From the IMG/VR virus record IMGVR_UViG_3300008450_000527, positions 1 through 21,894 of that record: DNA of 21,894 bases. One strand, given 5' to 3'. The notes beneath the pieces are model-generated. The model saw only the letters and a program-made list of their open reading frames with translations, searched no databases and had not been told where the DNA came from. This document shows, piece by piece, positions 12,407 through 21,894 of the stretch. A program made the translations under genes and the position numbers. Positions within the stretch are counted from its first letter, which is position 1, and each line of letters starts with the position of its first letter. The DNA comes from a virus.

Positions 12407-13084
12407 ATGGCATACGACCTCAACGGCTACGTCGACGTGGCAGAGAGGATCCGACAACTACGGGAGAAGCATCCGCACGCGGTTCTTCGTCCGTACAATC
12501 CAGCGGAACCGTTCAAGGTGATGGAGATCGGTGGGCGAGAGTTCATCGTGTACACGGCAGTGTGCTACCGCACGCCAGACGATCCGACGCCTGCGATCGC
12601 GGTAGCCGCAGAGCCTGCGGTGGGCAAGACCAACTACACGCGCGACAGCGAGGTGATGAACGCGGAGACGAGCGCGTGGGGGCGTTGTATCGTGGCAGCC
12701 CTCGCGGCTGATACTCAGCGCATCGCGTCTCTCAACGAGGTGCAGAACCGTCGAGCCGATCAGGAGAACGTGACGCCGCAGGATCTTCAGGAGGCGTACG
12801 AGCCTCGTGGTCCGATCCCGTTCCCCAAGCGTCCGAGCGCGTCTCAGGCGCGAGTCGACGAGCATCCGTCAGCGGGCGGCTCGTCCTCGAGCGGTGGCGA
12901 GATCTCGATGACGCCGAAGCAACGCGGGCTGATGATGAAGTTGGCGACCGAGAAGGGCTTGGACACGAGCGAACTCAAGGCGTTGATTCTCATCGCAGTC
13001 GGACGAGAAGTCGCTGAGATCAGCGATCTGTCGAAGGGCGACGCGTCGAAGGTGATCAAGCATCTGATGGAGATGGTCGGATGA
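12407..13084 (+). CDS. ERF-like single-strand annealing / ssDNA-binding protein
   Basis: A 225-residue protein with AAGGGAG upstream. The N-terminal domain ends in NYTRDSEVMNAETSAWGRCI (about 76-95); the ETSAWGR block resembles the ERF-type annealing-protein core (SETRAxGRAL). A flexible Ser/Gly/Pro linker (about 135-165) precedes a C-terminal module starting MTPKQRGLMMKLATEKGL (168 on) and ending DLSKGDASKVIKHLMEM, which is widespread in phage recombination and ssDNA-binding proteins. Together with the upstream YqaJ nuclease it forms an exonuclease-annealase recombination pair, as in lambda Exo-Beta. The annealase call rests on neighbours and motif similarity; plain ssDNA-binding is possible. 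Confidence 0.65.
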   Translation: MAYDLNGYVDVAERIRQLREKHPHAVLRPYNPAEPFKVMEIGGREFIVYTAVCYRTPDDPTPAIAVAAEPAVGKTNYTRDSEVMNAETSAWGRCIVAALAADTQRIASLNEVQNRRADQENVTPQDLQEAYEPRGPIPFPKRPSASQARVDEHPSAGGSSSSGGEISMTPKQRGLMMKLATEKGLDTSELKALILIAVGREVAEISDLSKGDASKVIKHLMEMVG

Positions 13085-13590
13085 GCATCGTCGATCCGTT
13101 CGGCAACAGCGTGCCGTTCGTGGCTGTCGACACGTCCCGCGAGCGTGCGGGCGTGTTGGCAGCGACTGGCAAGTGGCAGAAGTACCGAGAGGACGTCCTA
13201 CGTCGCTTGTACGAGGCGGGCGATACTGGGATGACGTGGCGAGAACTCTCGTCTGAGACGGGCTTGCACCACGGGCAGATCAGCGGCGTTCTCTCGAAGT
13301 TGCACGAGGACGGTCTGGTGTTTGCGTTGACGGCGCGTCGCGCGAGATCGCATCCGTACGTTCACAGCGCGTTCCGTATCGCGTTCAGTCCGTCACTTCG
13401 ACGTGACGAACCGACGAGGACGAAGGCGTCGACGTATCGCGAGACGTTGGAGCACGCGCGCGCGATCTCGAGGGATCTTCAGACGAGGCTCAACGACTTC
13501 GATCGCGAGATCCTTCAGGCGGCTCTGGGCGAGAGGTTCGTGCATCTGATCGACGAGTTGGATGGAGTGCTGAACGATGCGACGCGATAG
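13081..13590 (+). CDS. Winged-helix DNA-binding protein
   Basis: A 169-residue protein with an ATGA overlap. Residues about 34-90 form a winged helix: YREDVLRRLYEAGDTGMTWR then ELSSETGLHHGQISGVLSKL and HEDGLVFALTARR as the wing. This resembles MarR-like domains, here with a hydrophobic helical C-terminus (about 115-165) that may dimerise. It lies between the annealing protein and WhiB, so it may be an early-gene regulator or act at the origin. The target is unknown. Confidence 0.65.
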   Translation: MSIVDPFGNSVPFVAVDTSRERAGVLAATGKWQKYREDVLRRLYEAGDTGMTWRELSSETGLHHGQISGVLSKLHEDGLVFALTARRARSHPYVHSAFRIAFSPSLRRDEPTRTKASTYRETLEHARAISRDLQTRLNDFDREILQAALGERFVHLIDELDGVLNDATR

Positions 13591-13837
13591 GTGGCTGACG
13601 AGCGCGGCGTGCCGTGGCTTGCCCACGTCGATGTTCTTCCCTGAGCGTTGGCAGAACGCGTCGGCGCACGAGACTGCCAAGAAGATCTGCGACACCTGTA
13701 GGGTGAAGGGCGAGTGTCTCGAACTCGCCTTGCGCGAGATCCGATCGGAAGAGGATCGCTGGGGCGTATTCGGCGGTTTGACGCCGCACGAGCGGTGGAT
13801 GGAACGGAGACGAAGGGAGAGAGAGGCGAATGGCTGA
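13577..13837 (+). CDS. WhiB-family iron-sulfur regulator (phage-encoded)
   Basis: An 86-residue protein whose ATG overlaps the previous gene by 14 bp. It has the four WhiB Cys (C12, C38, C41, C47) in the pattern C-x25-CDTC-x5-C and the GVFGGLTPHER motif (63-73) equivalent to the GVWGG turn. WhiB proteins bind a 4Fe-4S cluster and attach to the main sigma factor in actinobacteria. Phage-borne WhiB proteins, such as that of mycobacteriophage TM4, can counter host WhiB function. Its presence is the best single indicator of an actinobacterial host. It probably modulates host transcription during infection. Confidence 0.88.
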   Translation: MRRDRWLTSAACRGLPTSMFFPERWQNASAHETAKKICDTCRVKGECLELALREIRSEEDRWGVFGGLTPHERWMERRRREREANG

Positions 13838-14009
13838 GAACGTGGGAGACGAGCCGTCGATGGCGATGCTGTATGCGGTCGCGTGTCGAGAACGCGACGC
13901 GTGGCGCAAGGCGGCATACGACGCGCTGGAACTGGCAGAACAGATCAAGGACGCGCTCGCGAAGGCGAACACGATGCTGGAGGCGATGACTCATGGCAGT
14001 AACAACTGA
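13830..14009 (+). CDS. Small helical protein, unknown function
   Basis: A 59-residue protein with ATG 13830 overlapping the WhiB stop and GAAGGGAGAGAG upstream. It is mostly one amphipathic helix (CRERDAWRKAAYDALELAEQ followed by IKDALAKANTMLEAM), so it is likely a coiled coil. It overlaps the next gene by 17 bp, which is larger than usual but in a distinct frame with its own start. No family is recognised. Confidence 0.45.
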   Translation: MAENVGDEPSMAMLYAVACRERDAWRKAAYDALELAEQIKDALAKANTMLEAMTHGSNN

Positions 14010-14460
14010 GCGCAAGGGCGAGTGCGGTGGCGTCCGCGAGAAGTGCTCGCTGCCTGACTGTCCGAAGTTCGGCACGCTGGGGCGAGAAGATCGCAACGGG
14101 CGACGTCGAGTCAAGGGCTGTGGCGATCCAGCGGCGCGTGGCAAGCGGAACCGTACGAAGGGCGACAGCAAGGCGCGTCGCGCTCGTCGAGTGCTCGGGA
14201 TCTCTGGCGCGAACAGTCGCCACGAAGAGCATTGGGGCGGCGGGCTTGTTCGAGTCGAAGTGAAGGCTGGCGCGCAAGTGTCGCCGATCGCGACACGGTT
14301 CGACGCGGCACGCAGTCAGTCGGAGGCGCAACGTCCGCTTGGTGACGTTCGTCCGTTCGCGATGATCGCGATGCCAGACGGTCGTACGAACGGGATCGTG
14401 TTGATGGCACTCGAGGACTTCGCGGTGCTAATCGAGGCGGCGCAGGCGTCGCTACGCTGA
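13993..14460 (+). CDS. PDDEXK-like nuclease, possible Holliday-junction resolvase
   Basis: A 155-residue protein from ATG 13993. An N-terminal Cys cluster (C11, C18, C23, C43) suggests zinc. Then come a basic region and HEEHWGGGLVRVEVKAG with E78/E79, Glu89 and Lys91, an E...ExK arrangement as in PDDEXK nucleases. ATRFDAARSQSEAQ and MIAMPDGRTNGIVLM complete a pattern I recall from resolvase-like proteins of actinobacteriophages. It sits between recombination genes and the replication initiator, which fits a DNA-branch nuclease. The precise substrate is not proven. Confidence 0.5.
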   Translation: MAVTTERKGECGGVREKCSLPDCPKFGTLGREDRNGRRRVKGCGDPAARGKRNRTKGDSKARRARRVLGISGANSRHEEHWGGGLVRVEVKAGAQVSPIATRFDAARSQSEAQRPLGDVRPFAMIAMPDGRTNGIVLMALEDFAVLIEAAQASLR

Positions 14461-18146: not shown

Positions 18147-18980
18147 ATGGAGACGCGCAAGCCGTTGAGGTTTCTATCGCTCGGCGCGGGAGTTCAGTCG
18201 ACGACCGTTCTGCTGATGATGATCCACGGCGAGATCGAGCGAGCCGACCACGTGATCTTCGCCGACACGGGCTGGGAGCCAGCGGGTGTCTACGAACATC
18301 TGGCACGACTCGAGGAACTGATGGTGAAACACGATTTGCCGTTTCACAAGGTTGGGGTTGGCAACATTCGAGAGGACGCGATCATTCCAGACAAGCGTTC
18401 TGCAACGCTGCCATTCCACATGATCAACGCCGATGGATCGCGCGGCATGATCAGACGCCAGTGCACGAACGACTACAAGATTCAGCCTCTGCTGAAGAAA
18501 CAGCGCGAACTTGTCGGTTTGGCGCGAGGTCAGCGATCGAAGGAACATTTGGGTACGACCGTCATCGGTATCTCGTGGGACGAGACTCAGAGGATGCGTG
18601 ATGCGGCGTTCTCGTGGCTGAGGAACGAGTATCCGTTGGTGGATCTTAGGATGACGCGCGAGGACTGTCTTGCGTGGTGCGCCAAGAACGGTTACGCGTT
18701 GCCGCCTCGTTCGGCGTGCATCGGCTGTCCGTTCAAGAGCGACGCGGAGTGGCGACGTCTCAAAGAGACGATGCCCGAAGAGTGGGCTGACGCGGTCGCC
18801 TTCGATAAGGCGATCCGAGATCCCGCGACGAAGAAGAAGATGATGCGGTCAACGCCGTATCTCCACAAGTCAGCCGTTCCGCTCGACGAGGTCGATCTAC
18901 GAACGGAAGAAGAGCGCGGCATTATGCGTCTCTTCGAGGAAGAGTTTGGACAAGAGTGCGAAGGTATGTGTGGGCTGTAG
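18147..18980 (+). CDS. PAPS-reductase-like PP-loop protein (adenine-nucleotide alpha-hydrolase superfamily)
   Basis: A 277-residue protein from ATG 18147 with GGAAGGGAG upstream. LGAGVQSTT (12-20) is the ATP pyrophosphatase PP-loop; ADTGWEP (39-45) and RRQCTNDYKIQPL (103-115) are typical of the PAPS-reductase family found in phages. CIGC (191-194) and the final CEGMC (271-275), with C106, may hold an iron-sulfur cluster or a redox centre. In cells the family reduces PAPS or activates a substrate by adenylation. In phages it commonly lies near DNA methyltransferases and ParB-like genes, as here. A role in nucleotide or DNA sulfur chemistry is possible, but its reaction is not known from sequence. 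Confidence 0.8.
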   Translation: METRKPLRFLSLGAGVQSTTVLLMMIHGEIERADHVIFADTGWEPAGVYEHLARLEELMVKHDLPFHKVGVGNIREDAIIPDKRSATLPFHMINADGSRGMIRRQCTNDYKIQPLLKKQRELVGLARGQRSKEHLGTTVIGISWDETQRMRDAAFSWLRNEYPLVDLRMTREDCLAWCAKNGYALPPRSACIGCPFKSDAEWRRLKETMPEEWADAVAFDKAIRDPATKKKMMRSTPYLHKSAVPLDEVDLRTEEERGIMRLFEEEFGQECEGMCGL

Positions 18981-19444: not shown

Positions 19445-19951
19445 GTGATCCACCAAGCAATCGAGCATCTGGCTGTCGAGATCGACACGCTGAAGGCACA
19501 TCCGCGCAACGTACGTCAGGGAGACGTCGGAGCAATCTCCGAGTCGCTACGCGAGCACGGGCAGTACCGCCCGATCATCGTGCAGAAGTCGACGCGCTAC
19601 ATCATCGCGGGCAACCACACCTACAAGGCAGCGAAGTCTCTTGGCTGGGAGAAGATCGCGGCGCACTTGCTCGACGTCGACGACGACACAGCGATCAGGA
19701 TGATGCTCATCGACAATCGCGCCAACGATCTCGCGATGTACGACGATCGCGAACTTGCCAACCTTCTGTCGGATCTCGCCACGAGCGAGAACGGACTACT
19801 GGGTACGGGATACTCGGCTGATCTTCTCGACGATCTGATCAAGGACATCGAGACGCCACTCACCGACGAGTTCGAGAAGGTCGACGTGGATCTGGCGACG
19901 GAGCACCGTTGTCCCAAGTGCGGCTACGAGTGGAGCGGCAAGTCAACGTGA
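19445..19951 (+). CDS. ParB-like nuclease-domain protein with C-terminal zinc ribbon
   Basis: A 168-residue protein from GTG 19445 (GGAAGGG upstream). The ParB/Srx-like fold is shown by LKAHPRNVRQGD (16-27), GAISESLREHGQYRPIIV (29-46), GNHTYKAAKSLGW (56-68) and LIDNRANDLA (88-97). The C-terminus CPKCGYEW (156-163) is half a zinc ribbon. In phages such proteins often pair with DNA methyltransferases and are thought to guide or regulate modification, or to bind CTP/ATP like ParB. It overlaps the methyltransferase gene by GTGA, so the two are probably made in fixed ratio. Confidence 0.8.
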   Translation: MIHQAIEHLAVEIDTLKAHPRNVRQGDVGAISESLREHGQYRPIIVQKSTRYIIAGNHTYKAAKSLGWEKIAAHLLDVDDDTAIRMMLIDNRANDLAMYDDRELANLLSDLATSENGLLGTGYSADLLDDLIKDIETPLTDEFEKVDVDLATEHRCPKCGYEWSGKST

Positions 19952-21024
19952 CGTCGACGCGCACGCCCTACCACGTGCCGTCTATGGATGAGATCGCGCG
20001 CATACGAGGGACGAACGGCTACACGCTCGTGTCGACGTTCTCTGGCTGTGGCGGTTCGTGTCTCGGGTTCGAGATGGCTGGGTTTGACGTTCGCGTAGCG
20101 TCGGAGTTCATTCCAGCGGCTCGCGAGACGTACGCCGCTAACCATCCACACGTCGTGCTCGACGGACGCGACATCCGCGACGTTCGCGCCTCTGATCTTC
20201 TCGAACTCGCTGGAGTCGACGAGATCGACGTCCTCGAGGGTTCGCCGCCGTGCGCCTCGTTCTCGACGGCTGGCAAGCGTCACGAAGGCTGGGGAGACGT
20301 CCGCAGTTACTCGGACTCGTCCCAACGGTCGGATGACCTGTTCTTCGAGTACGCGCGCATCCTCAAGGAACTCCAGCCGAAGGTGTTCGTGGCAGAGAAC
20401 GTGACGGGACTCGTCAAGGGTTCTGCCAAGGGGTACTTCAAGATGATCATCACGCGTCTGCGTGAGTGCGGCTACGTCGTCGAGGCTCGCGTGCTCGACG
20501 CCTCGCAACTGGGCGTCCCGCAGAAGAGACAGCGCGTGATCTTCGTCGGCGTCCGCAACGATCTCGGACGTCAGCCCGCATTCCCTAAGCCTCGAGCCGA
20601 AGTCGTGACGATGTATGACGCGCTCGGAGAGAACTTGCGCGTGCCAGATGACGCGACGAACTTGGATCCTGAGACTGGGCAAGACCTGTCGATCCGCAAC
20701 TACAAGGTGGGCGAGGCGTATCTGAGCGTTCCGCTCGGCAAGCACAACGCGCGCTACTTCCAGTTGAGCCGTCCCGATCCGACGCGTCCCGCGCCGACGA
20801 TCTGCGCGTCAGTTGGCAGTCTCGGATCTCGCAACCCCGTGCACCCGTTTGACTTCCGCTATTTCAACCTGCGCGAACTTCGACGCCTCTGCGGGTTCCC
20901 CGACGACTTCATCCTTCACGGTCACTACTCGCGACGCGCGGAACGTCTCGGACGAGCGGTGCCGCCTCTGATGATGCGCGAGGTCGCTGCGACCGTACGC
21001 GACGAGATCTTGGCAACGTTGTGA
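19948..21024 (+). CDS. C5-cytosine DNA methyltransferase with altered motif X (GRAVPP)
   Basis: A 358-residue protein. GTG 19948 overlaps the ParB-like stop (GTGA); upstream in-frame starts would lie inside the ParB-like gene. All core motifs are present: I FSGCGG (31-36), IV GSPPC with catalytic Cys102, VI ENV (150-152), VIII QKRQR (192-196), IX LRRLCGFPDDF (311-321). In motif X the family normally has GN-A/S-V, with the Asn near the cofactor; here it is GRAVPP with Arg336 (bases 20953-20955). An engineered C5-methyltransferase (M.MpeI N374K) is known to gain carboxy-SAM use by a basic change at this motif-X Asn. The target site is not known. It is coupled by GTGA to the CmoA-like gene. Confidence 0.88.
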   Translation: MTSTRTPYHVPSMDEIARIRGTNGYTLVSTFSGCGGSCLGFEMAGFDVRVASEFIPAARETYAANHPHVVLDGRDIRDVRASDLLELAGVDEIDVLEGSPPCASFSTAGKRHEGWGDVRSYSDSSQRSDDLFFEYARILKELQPKVFVAENVTGLVKGSAKGYFKMIITRLRECGYVVEARVLDASQLGVPQKRQRVIFVGVRNDLGRQPAFPKPRAEVVTMYDALGENLRVPDDATNLDPETGQDLSIRNYKVGEAYLSVPLGKHNARYFQLSRPDPTRPAPTICASVGSLGSRNPVHPFDFRYFNLRELRRLCGFPDDFILHGHYSRRAERLGRAVPPLMMREVAATVRDEILATL

Positions 21025-21680
21025 CCGAACGGTTCGAGATCCCGCGTGACTGGACGTTCAAGGATCAGAGCGTCGTGGACGCGTTCGATCGCCACGTGCG
21101 CGAGCAACTCCCGTTCTACGATCTCGTGGCTGGAGCCGTCGCTCACATCGCCCGCCACTACCTGCCCCACGGCGGTCGGCTGTACGACATCGGAGCGTCG
21201 ACAGGGAACGTCACTACCCTTCTCGCCGAGACGATCGCGACACGAGACATCGAGACGATCAGTCTGGACAACGCGCCAGAGATGGCAACCAAGTTCCGTG
21301 GCGTCGGGACGCTGACGATCGCAGACGCGACGGGCTACCCGTTCGAGCCGTTCGACGTCGCCGTGCTCTTCCTCGTCCTGATGTTCGTCCCTATGCGCGA
21401 GAGAGCCGACCTTATGGATCGCCTGCTGGACGCTGGGCGAGAAGGAGGCGCAATCATCATCGTCGACAAGATCGCCGACCACACGGACTATGTCGGGACG
21501 ATCATGCGCAGACTGACCCTCGCTGGGAAGATCGCCGCTGGCACGAGCGCGCAGGACGTACTCGACAAGGAACTATCCCTCGGCGGGATCCAACGCCCCA
21601 TCAGTCTCGACACGCTGCCCAATCACGCACAAGAGTTCTTCCGTTGGGGAGAGTTCGCAGGCTGGATCATCGAGACGTGA
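21021..21680 (+). CDS. CmoA-family SAM-dependent enzyme (possible carboxy-SAM synthase)
   Basis: A 219-residue protein, GTG 21021 overlapping the methyltransferase stop. The N-terminal DWTFKDQSVVDAFDRHV then QLPFYD (10-33) is the CmoA-specific lead-in, followed by LYDIGASTG (54-62) as SAM motif I, SLDNAPEM (81-88) for the acidic loop, and a C-terminal FFRWGEFAGWIIE as in CmoA. CmoA converts SAM plus prephenate to carboxy-SAM, used by CmoB on tRNA; no CmoB is in the window. By eye, E. coli Arg199 aligns with Glu184 here (LDKELSLGG), which may alter carboxylate binding; Arg192 lies nearby. The family call is good; the product (carboxy-SAM or other) is not proven. Confidence 0.75.
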   Translation: MTERFEIPRDWTFKDQSVVDAFDRHVREQLPFYDLVAGAVAHIARHYLPHGGRLYDIGASTGNVTTLLAETIATRDIETISLDNAPEMATKFRGVGTLTIADATGYPFEPFDVAVLFLVLMFVPMRERADLMDRLLDAGREGGAIIIVDKIADHTDYVGTIMRRLTLAGKIAAGTSAQDVLDKELSLGGIQRPISLDTLPNHAQEFFRWGEFAGWIIET

Positions 21681-21894
21681 AGATCCGTCGCCCCTGCCTC
21701 GACTGCGGAGCACTCACCGAAGGCACCACCCGCTGCCCCAGCCATACCAAGAAGGCGAACCGACTCTATGACTCGTCCCACCGCAAGAAGGCACGAGAAG
21801 TTCGAGCGACCACGACCCGATGCTGGATCTGTGGAGAAGGCGAACGCGAAGGCGACCCGTGGCAAGCCGATCACCTAGACGCTGGCAACCCGAA
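21677..21894 (+). CDS. HNH endonuclease with zinc-finger N-terminus (3'-truncated by window edge)
   Basis: Starts at GTG 21677 overlapping the CmoA-like stop (GTGA) and runs off the window end. CLDCGALTEG then TRCPSH gives a zinc ligand set, followed by NRLYDSSHRKKAREV and CWICGEGEREG then DPWQADHLDAG, the beginning of the HNH site (DH). Phage HNH nucleases of this kind commonly lie just before the terminase genes and help DNA packaging cuts. The position after the modification island would fit the end of the early or start of the packaging module. Confidence 0.75.
   Translation, partial: MKIRRPCLDCGALTEGTTRCPSHTKKANRLYDSSHRKKAREVRATTTRCWICGEGEREGDPWQADHLDAGNP

Follow-up and report, generated by a model that had tools for sequence, protein, structure and literature searches.

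The three genes at the right end of the window, coding for ParB, CmoX and CmoA, follow one another in series, joined by two 4-base GTGA overlaps, and very probably constitute a CmoA/CmoX-type DNA hypermodification cassette in which CmoA would make carboxy-SAM and CmoX would use it to put 5-carboxymethylcytosine (5cxmC) into DNA. By the window we mean the whole stretch of DNA that was analysed, 21,894 bases, which is the complete IMG/VR record IMGVR_UViG_3300008450_000527 and a fragment of a tailed phage. The pair of CmoX and CmoA is a further member of a system that was published in December 2025. The first-pass annotation had read this pair in the same sense, as a CmoA whose carboxy-SAM is used to form 5cxmC; the chemistry of that reading stands, having been proven for the homologues from phage S-B43 (PMC12783734), its novelty does not survive the December 2025 publication, and the final base is uncertain, the S-B43 base being amidated by CmoY. 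Our confidence in the final base is accordingly much lower than in the mechanism. The features to which we refer are as follows.

13577-13837: WhiB-family regulator (PF02467, E 1.3e-15)
18147-18980: PAPS-reductase-like PP-loop protein with C-terminal cysteines (phrog_424), ~460 bases upstream of the ParB gene
19445..19951, plus strand: ParB-N (ParBc)-domain protein, 168 residues (PF02195, E 5.7e-12; phrog_723/620), with CPKCGYEW near the C-terminus
19948-19951: GTGA overlap of the ParB stop and the CmoX start
19948..21024, plus strand: CmoX, predicted C5-cytosine DNA carboxymethyltransferase, 358 residues (PF00145, E 2.5e-60), with Cys102 as nucleophile and Arg336 in motif X
21021..21024, plus strand: GTGA overlap of the CmoX stop and the CmoA start
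21021..21680, plus strand: CmoA, predicted carboxy-SAM synthase homologue, 219 residues (TIGR00740, E 1.7e-16; phrog_4752, E 2.3e-45)
21680-21894: open frame with CxxC pairs that runs off the end of the fragment, HNH-endonuclease-like by eye

Besides the cassette, the window carries tail genes (with tape-measure matches), a RecE-like exonuclease, a replication-initiation protein and the WhiB regulator, from which a probable actinobacterial host can be proposed. Searches of the cut-off frame at the right end against Pfam and PHROG gave no match. The first-pass annotation had described a complete C5-methyltransferase gene whose stop overlaps the start of a CmoA-like gene, and it was right in this, coordinates included: the methyltransferase frame opens with GTG and is intact, the overlap is the GTGA at 21021-21024, and the downstream product is CmoA-like by TIGR00740, although it scores below the equivalog cut-off of that model. 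That account had left out the ParB gene as well as a second overlap, the one at 19948-19951. The ParB-N protein is a recurrent partner of CmoX, a ParB-like gene being close by in 90 of 129 dereplicated CmoX loci. The pairing of CmoX with CmoA is not a matter of chance, since dozens of unrelated contigs have the two genes together as well. Purifying selection acts on both genes, as judged by uncorrected pN/pS values, taken against the homologous locus L006, of 0.26/0.80 for CmoX and 0.16/0.67 for CmoA.

The system to which we assign these genes was described by Yang and colleagues (Nat Commun, December 2025; PMC12783734) in Synechococcus phage S-B43, where CmoA is a carboxy-SAM synthase that outpaces its E. 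coli counterpart, CmoX uses carboxy-SAM and not SAM to form 5cxmC, and the ligase CmoY amidates this base with glycine. The modification motif there is GC, and mass spectrometry of the phage DNA detected the glycine amide only. In the crystal structure 8yf3 of SpCmoX, Arg350, at the position of M.HhaI Asn304, touches the carboxymethyl group, and the R350N mutant used neither cofactor (PMC12783734).

The window CmoX has the key residues of SpCmoX. Its motif IV is GSPPC at residues 98-102, with Cys102 as nucleophile, as in the C5-methyltransferase fold, and its motif X reads GRAVPP, with Arg336 at the usual Asn position. Its top match in the PDB is 8yf3 itself (E 4.1e-62), the runner-up, M.HaeIII, being far behind (E 1.4e-29). 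Arg336 aligns with Arg350 of 8yf3, so that motif and alignment both bear out the earlier observation that an arginine replaces the motif-X Asn of this methyltransferase. The other contacts to carboxy-SAM are also kept, with F25, E47, F48, D69 and R350 of SpCmoX corresponding to F31, E53, F54, D75 and R336 of the window enzyme, and these five residues are invariant across 20 homologues. A CmoA gene lies next to it and overlaps it.

Both reactions and the contact between arginine and carboxylate have been demonstrated in homologues (PMC12783734), and by analogy with these one may propose the following course. CmoA would convert SAM and prephenate to carboxy-SAM. CmoX would flip a cytosine out of double-stranded DNA, Cys102 would attack C6, and the carboxymethyl group would be moved from carboxy-SAM to C5, with Arg336 binding the carboxylate of the cofactor and excluding ordinary SAM. 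The resulting 5cxmC would lie at a short recognition motif in the phage genome, where it should block host restriction. As the fragment has no CmoY, the base would then either stay 5cxmC or be altered by the product of a gene that lies beyond the fragment. What we observe are the identities of the genes, their key residues, their operon layout and the linkage of the motif-X Arg with CmoA; activity in this phage, its target motif, its final base and its biological role are what we infer.

The final base would depend on whether the phage has an amide ligase. An iterated CmoY profile found no CmoY-type amide ligase (AMP-forming, of the Asn-synthase type) in the 21.9 kb window, which is an incomplete genome. 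Among 76 dereplicated CmoX loci that have 2 kb of flank, 30 include a CmoY-like gene, a share close to the 2,251 ligases reported for 5,615 CmoX (PMC12783734). The two nearest relatives of the window differ in this respect: L006, whose CmoX is 65% identical, carries a CmoY-like gene that separates ParB from CmoX, whereas the 11.5 kb contig of L019, whose CmoX is 69% identical, lacks one. It is therefore possible that 5cxmC is only an intermediate, which an amide ligase or another tailoring enzyme encoded outside the fragment converts, much as CmoY does in S-B43. This version of the main reading, to which we give a chance somewhat below even, draws on the ligase gene of L006, on its frequency among CmoX loci and on the fact that only 214 bases of the fragment are left beyond CmoA. 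Against it stand, apart from L019, the complete genomes of phage Mcat8 and of Synechococcus phage S-CRM01, which encode CmoX and CmoA but were entirely free of Asn-synthase-type genes in a search that did detect such genes in TurkishDelight, S-B05 and Erwinia phage Y3. Nor was any other tailoring gene seen to recur beside the ligase-free cassettes; the recurring neighbours apart from ParB look, by eye only, like packaging and structural genes. The CmoY-like protein of L006, used as a query against the ligase-free relatives in a search that had no positive control, returned nothing.

Plain 5cxmC may thus be the final base in Mcat8 and S-CRM01, and a bare 5cxmC as the final mark for part of the CmoX family is a fair prediction. 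The view that the window phage belongs to a ligase-free branch, in which the bare, negatively charged 5cxmC is the final mark or else is tailored by an enzyme other than CmoY, falls only just short of an even chance. We also considered the PP-loop gene at 18147-18980 as a substitute for CmoY and rejected it: among the surveyed loci it was met only in the window and in L066, in the latter well away from the cassette, and it does not recur among cassette neighbours.

The CmoA of the window belongs to a divergent subfamily, about 20-22% identical to E. coli CmoA and, by alignment, 21-25% identical to other distant phage CmoAs. TIGR00740 is its best curated model and covers nearly its full length (residues 10-198), with a score of 60.6 bits against an NCBIfam equivalog cut-off of 193.3. 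On sequence it is therefore to be called a CmoA homologue only, and its function is judged from its context. An AlphaFold2 model (mean pLDDT 90) is nearest to H. influenzae YecO, a CmoA homologue (Z 25.5), and to E. coli CmoA (Z 25.2), and almost as near to the methyltransferases CysG(N-16) and BelI (Z 23.7). With these so close behind, the fold alone is no proof of carboxy-SAM synthesis, and the fold search could not decisively separate CmoA from these related enzymes. Of the CmoA ligand residues, Y33, D56, G58, S60, D83, N84, D102 and F122 are kept, and Phe replaces Asn132 of E. coli.

The residue at one further position could be thought to speak against carboxy-SAM. In E. coli CmoA, Arg199 forms a salt bridge with the carboxylate (PMC3663124), and the first-pass annotation had aligned Glu184 of the window protein with this residue, concluding that the small molecule could differ. 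The alignment holds, as Glu184 does occupy the Arg199 column; the conclusion does not, since the CmoA of S-B43 (taken from MN018232; S-B05 has an identical one), a proven maker of carboxy-SAM (PMC12783734), also has Glu there. Elsewhere this column holds Ala (TurkishDelight) or, in other viral CmoAs, Arg, Lys or Ser, and the position therefore does not decide the activity of a phage CmoA. That Glu184 would direct the enzyme to another SAM derivative is for this reason very unlikely, the more so as the carboxylate-binding arginine is retained in CmoX. The genomes of possible hosts are in keeping with carboxy-SAM made by the phage itself: none of 7 actinobacterial genomes with the cassette had a CmoA above the curated cut-off; the strong matches below it map for the most part to the cassette loci. 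A phage infecting such a host would therefore have to bring its own CmoA. As the phage CmoAs are also below the cut-off, this absence is supportive, not decisive.

The first-pass annotation had proposed a survey of the co-occurrence of a basic motif-X residue with a CmoA neighbour, a missing link being taken to count against its reading; the outcome favours that reading. Several queries against viral contigs supplied a set of C5-methyltransferases, which was dereplicated at 80% identity, and for each enzyme we noted which residue it has in motif X and how far away the nearest CmoA lies. A CmoA was found within 5 kb of all 88 Arg enzymes with enough flank, versus 5 of 25 non-Arg enzymes, the other 20 being Asn enzymes. 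As CmoA itself had served to recruit some of these loci, we recounted with the loci found by methyltransferase queries, again in viral contigs, and the association held (69/69 Arg versus 2/22 Asn), as it did with an Asn-type query alone (22/22 Arg versus 0/20 Asn). In contigs of bacterial genomes, which were not dereplicated, 34 Arg-column enzymes had a CmoA within 5 kb, 33 of them recognised by pattern and one (L314) by its alignment column, versus none of 22 Asn enzymes. Another bacterial Arg enzyme (L272) has its CmoA at 5.1 kb, and three further ones had flanks too short to judge. The sole Arg-motif-X enzyme for which no CmoA was found, in ~8 kb on either side, is that of the Chloroflexi MAG NAT137 (L304:7905-9167).

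The five non-Arg exceptions of the viral set are of several kinds. In L019 the Asn enzyme accompanies a true CmoX as an additional methyltransferase, in L045 the Asn enzyme is close to the CmoA that belongs to a phrog_5475 locus (see below), and in L180 the CmoA is 4.7 kb away. The remaining two, L078 and L082, come from staphylococcal phages and have Gly at the motif-X position. In these phages, vB-SscS-F1 and SPbeta-like, CmoA lies beside an HhaI-like C5-methyltransferase (L082:4983-7501, L078:4989-6688), and the CmoA locus of phage F1 also has a CmoY-like ligase. Arg is thus not the sole motif-X state next to CmoA, and a search based on Arg would miss the staphylococcal pairs.

On the tree, the Arg state needs 4 changes, of which at least 3 are forced, giving 3 independent pairs. 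As there are only about 3-4 independent changes, Fisher p-values (below 1e-11) overstate the link between Arg and CmoA, and a sign test on the independent evolutionary pairs had 3 pairs only, too few for significance. L028, a distant C5-methyltransferase that adjoins CmoA, also has Arg, which is compatible with a repeated origin. Even so read, the near-perfect co-occurrence, together with the finding that SpCmoX, with the same Arg, used carboxy-SAM only and as R350N neither cofactor (PMC12783734), makes it the least probable of the alternatives, and a very improbable one, that the window enzyme is an ordinary SAM-using methyltransferase making 5mC, with a neutral Arg and a CmoA-like gene employed otherwise, for example in tRNA or small-molecule methylation, even if CmoX shares its fold with ordinary C5-methyltransferases and CmoA-like folds include true small-molecule methyltransferases.

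The survey also brought to light arrangements of the cassette that depart from that of the window. In Erwinia phage vB_EamM_Y3 (L081), CmoA and CmoY-like genes are at 12641-14309, and ParB with a long CmoX-like protein (GRICVP) is at 29703-32538, about 16 kb from them, so the parts of the cassette need not adjoin. In Verrucomicrobia MAGs (e.g. JAOSKK, JAKQDD, JABTUJ; L254-L264, L266), several CmoX-CmoA pairs occur on separate contigs of one MAG, which points to more than one prophage or to an element that spreads.

Many viral contigs form a group with a CmoA about 50% identical to that of the window and no CmoX. The partner of CmoA there is phrog_5475, a protein of ~504 residues in which one or more ParB-N domains are followed by a class I methyltransferase-like domain; in its predicted structure the former gave Z 14.3 and the latter Z 13.3 (METTL6). 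A HAD-like phosphatase often lies between phrog_5475 and CmoA. A CmoA homologue was near phrog_5475, without CmoX, in 83 of 84 loci, a count for which phrog_5475 itself was the main query and which includes some loci first found through CmoA. Isolated phages with this pair are Gordonia phage Evaa, Pseudomonas phage SM1 and Aeromonas phage HJ05, and examples of the gene are at the following positions.

L037:5844-7355
L045:7122-8621
L079:702-2234
L316:3947-5503
L317:1032-2624
~80 further loci

A preliminary search by Yang and colleagues found no candidates for adenine-N6 or cytosine-N4 carboxymethyltransferases beside CmoA (PMC12783734). With this in mind, phrog_5475 is a lead, and may represent a second, undescribed kind of carboxy-SAM user.

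Taken together, our findings widen the predicted range of the newly published 5cxmC modification, which now takes in a phage whose host is probably an actinobacterium as well as a divergent subfamily of CmoA, and they remove the apparent objection that came from Arg199 of CmoA. In the survey the motif-X Arg is linked to CmoA by controlled counts, and phage CmoA gains another candidate partner, unrelated to the first. Complete phages that have CmoX and CmoA and lack a CmoY-type ligase make bare 5cxmC, as a natural final base, a testable proposition.

Among known systems, that of S-B43 is alike in having a CmoX with SPPC and a motif-X Arg, a CmoA nearby and the same proposed chemistry, and a ParBc-domain neighbour was likewise reported to be common (PMC12783734). 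The window differs from it in sequence (about 37% identity for CmoX and about 21% for CmoA), in gene order, which is CmoA-CmoY-CmoX in S-B43 and ParB-CmoX-CmoA with overlaps here, in that no CmoY was found, and in its probably actinobacterial host. Moraxella phage Mcat8 (KR093632), in which these genes are annotated as hypothetical proteins, has the same order of ParB, CmoX and CmoA, overlapping CmoX and CmoA genes, a CmoA of the same subfamily (47-48% identity) and a complete genome without an Asn-synthase-type ligase; its cassette, however, lies one gene upstream of the terminase in a phage of Moraxella, and its sequences are 43-48% identical to those of the window. E. coli CmoA (4gek/4iwn) shares with the window protein its fold (Z 25) and most of the SAM-contacting residues, but only about 20-22% identity, with Glu for Arg199 and Phe for Asn132 in the window, and it serves the synthesis of tRNA cmo5U34 together with CmoB. 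In the engineered M.MpeI N374K, too, a basic residue in place of the motif-X Asn permits the use of carboxy-SAM (cited in PMC12783734); there the residue is a man-made Lys in an enzyme with a CG target, whereas in the window it is a natural Arg, accompanied by its own cofactor gene.
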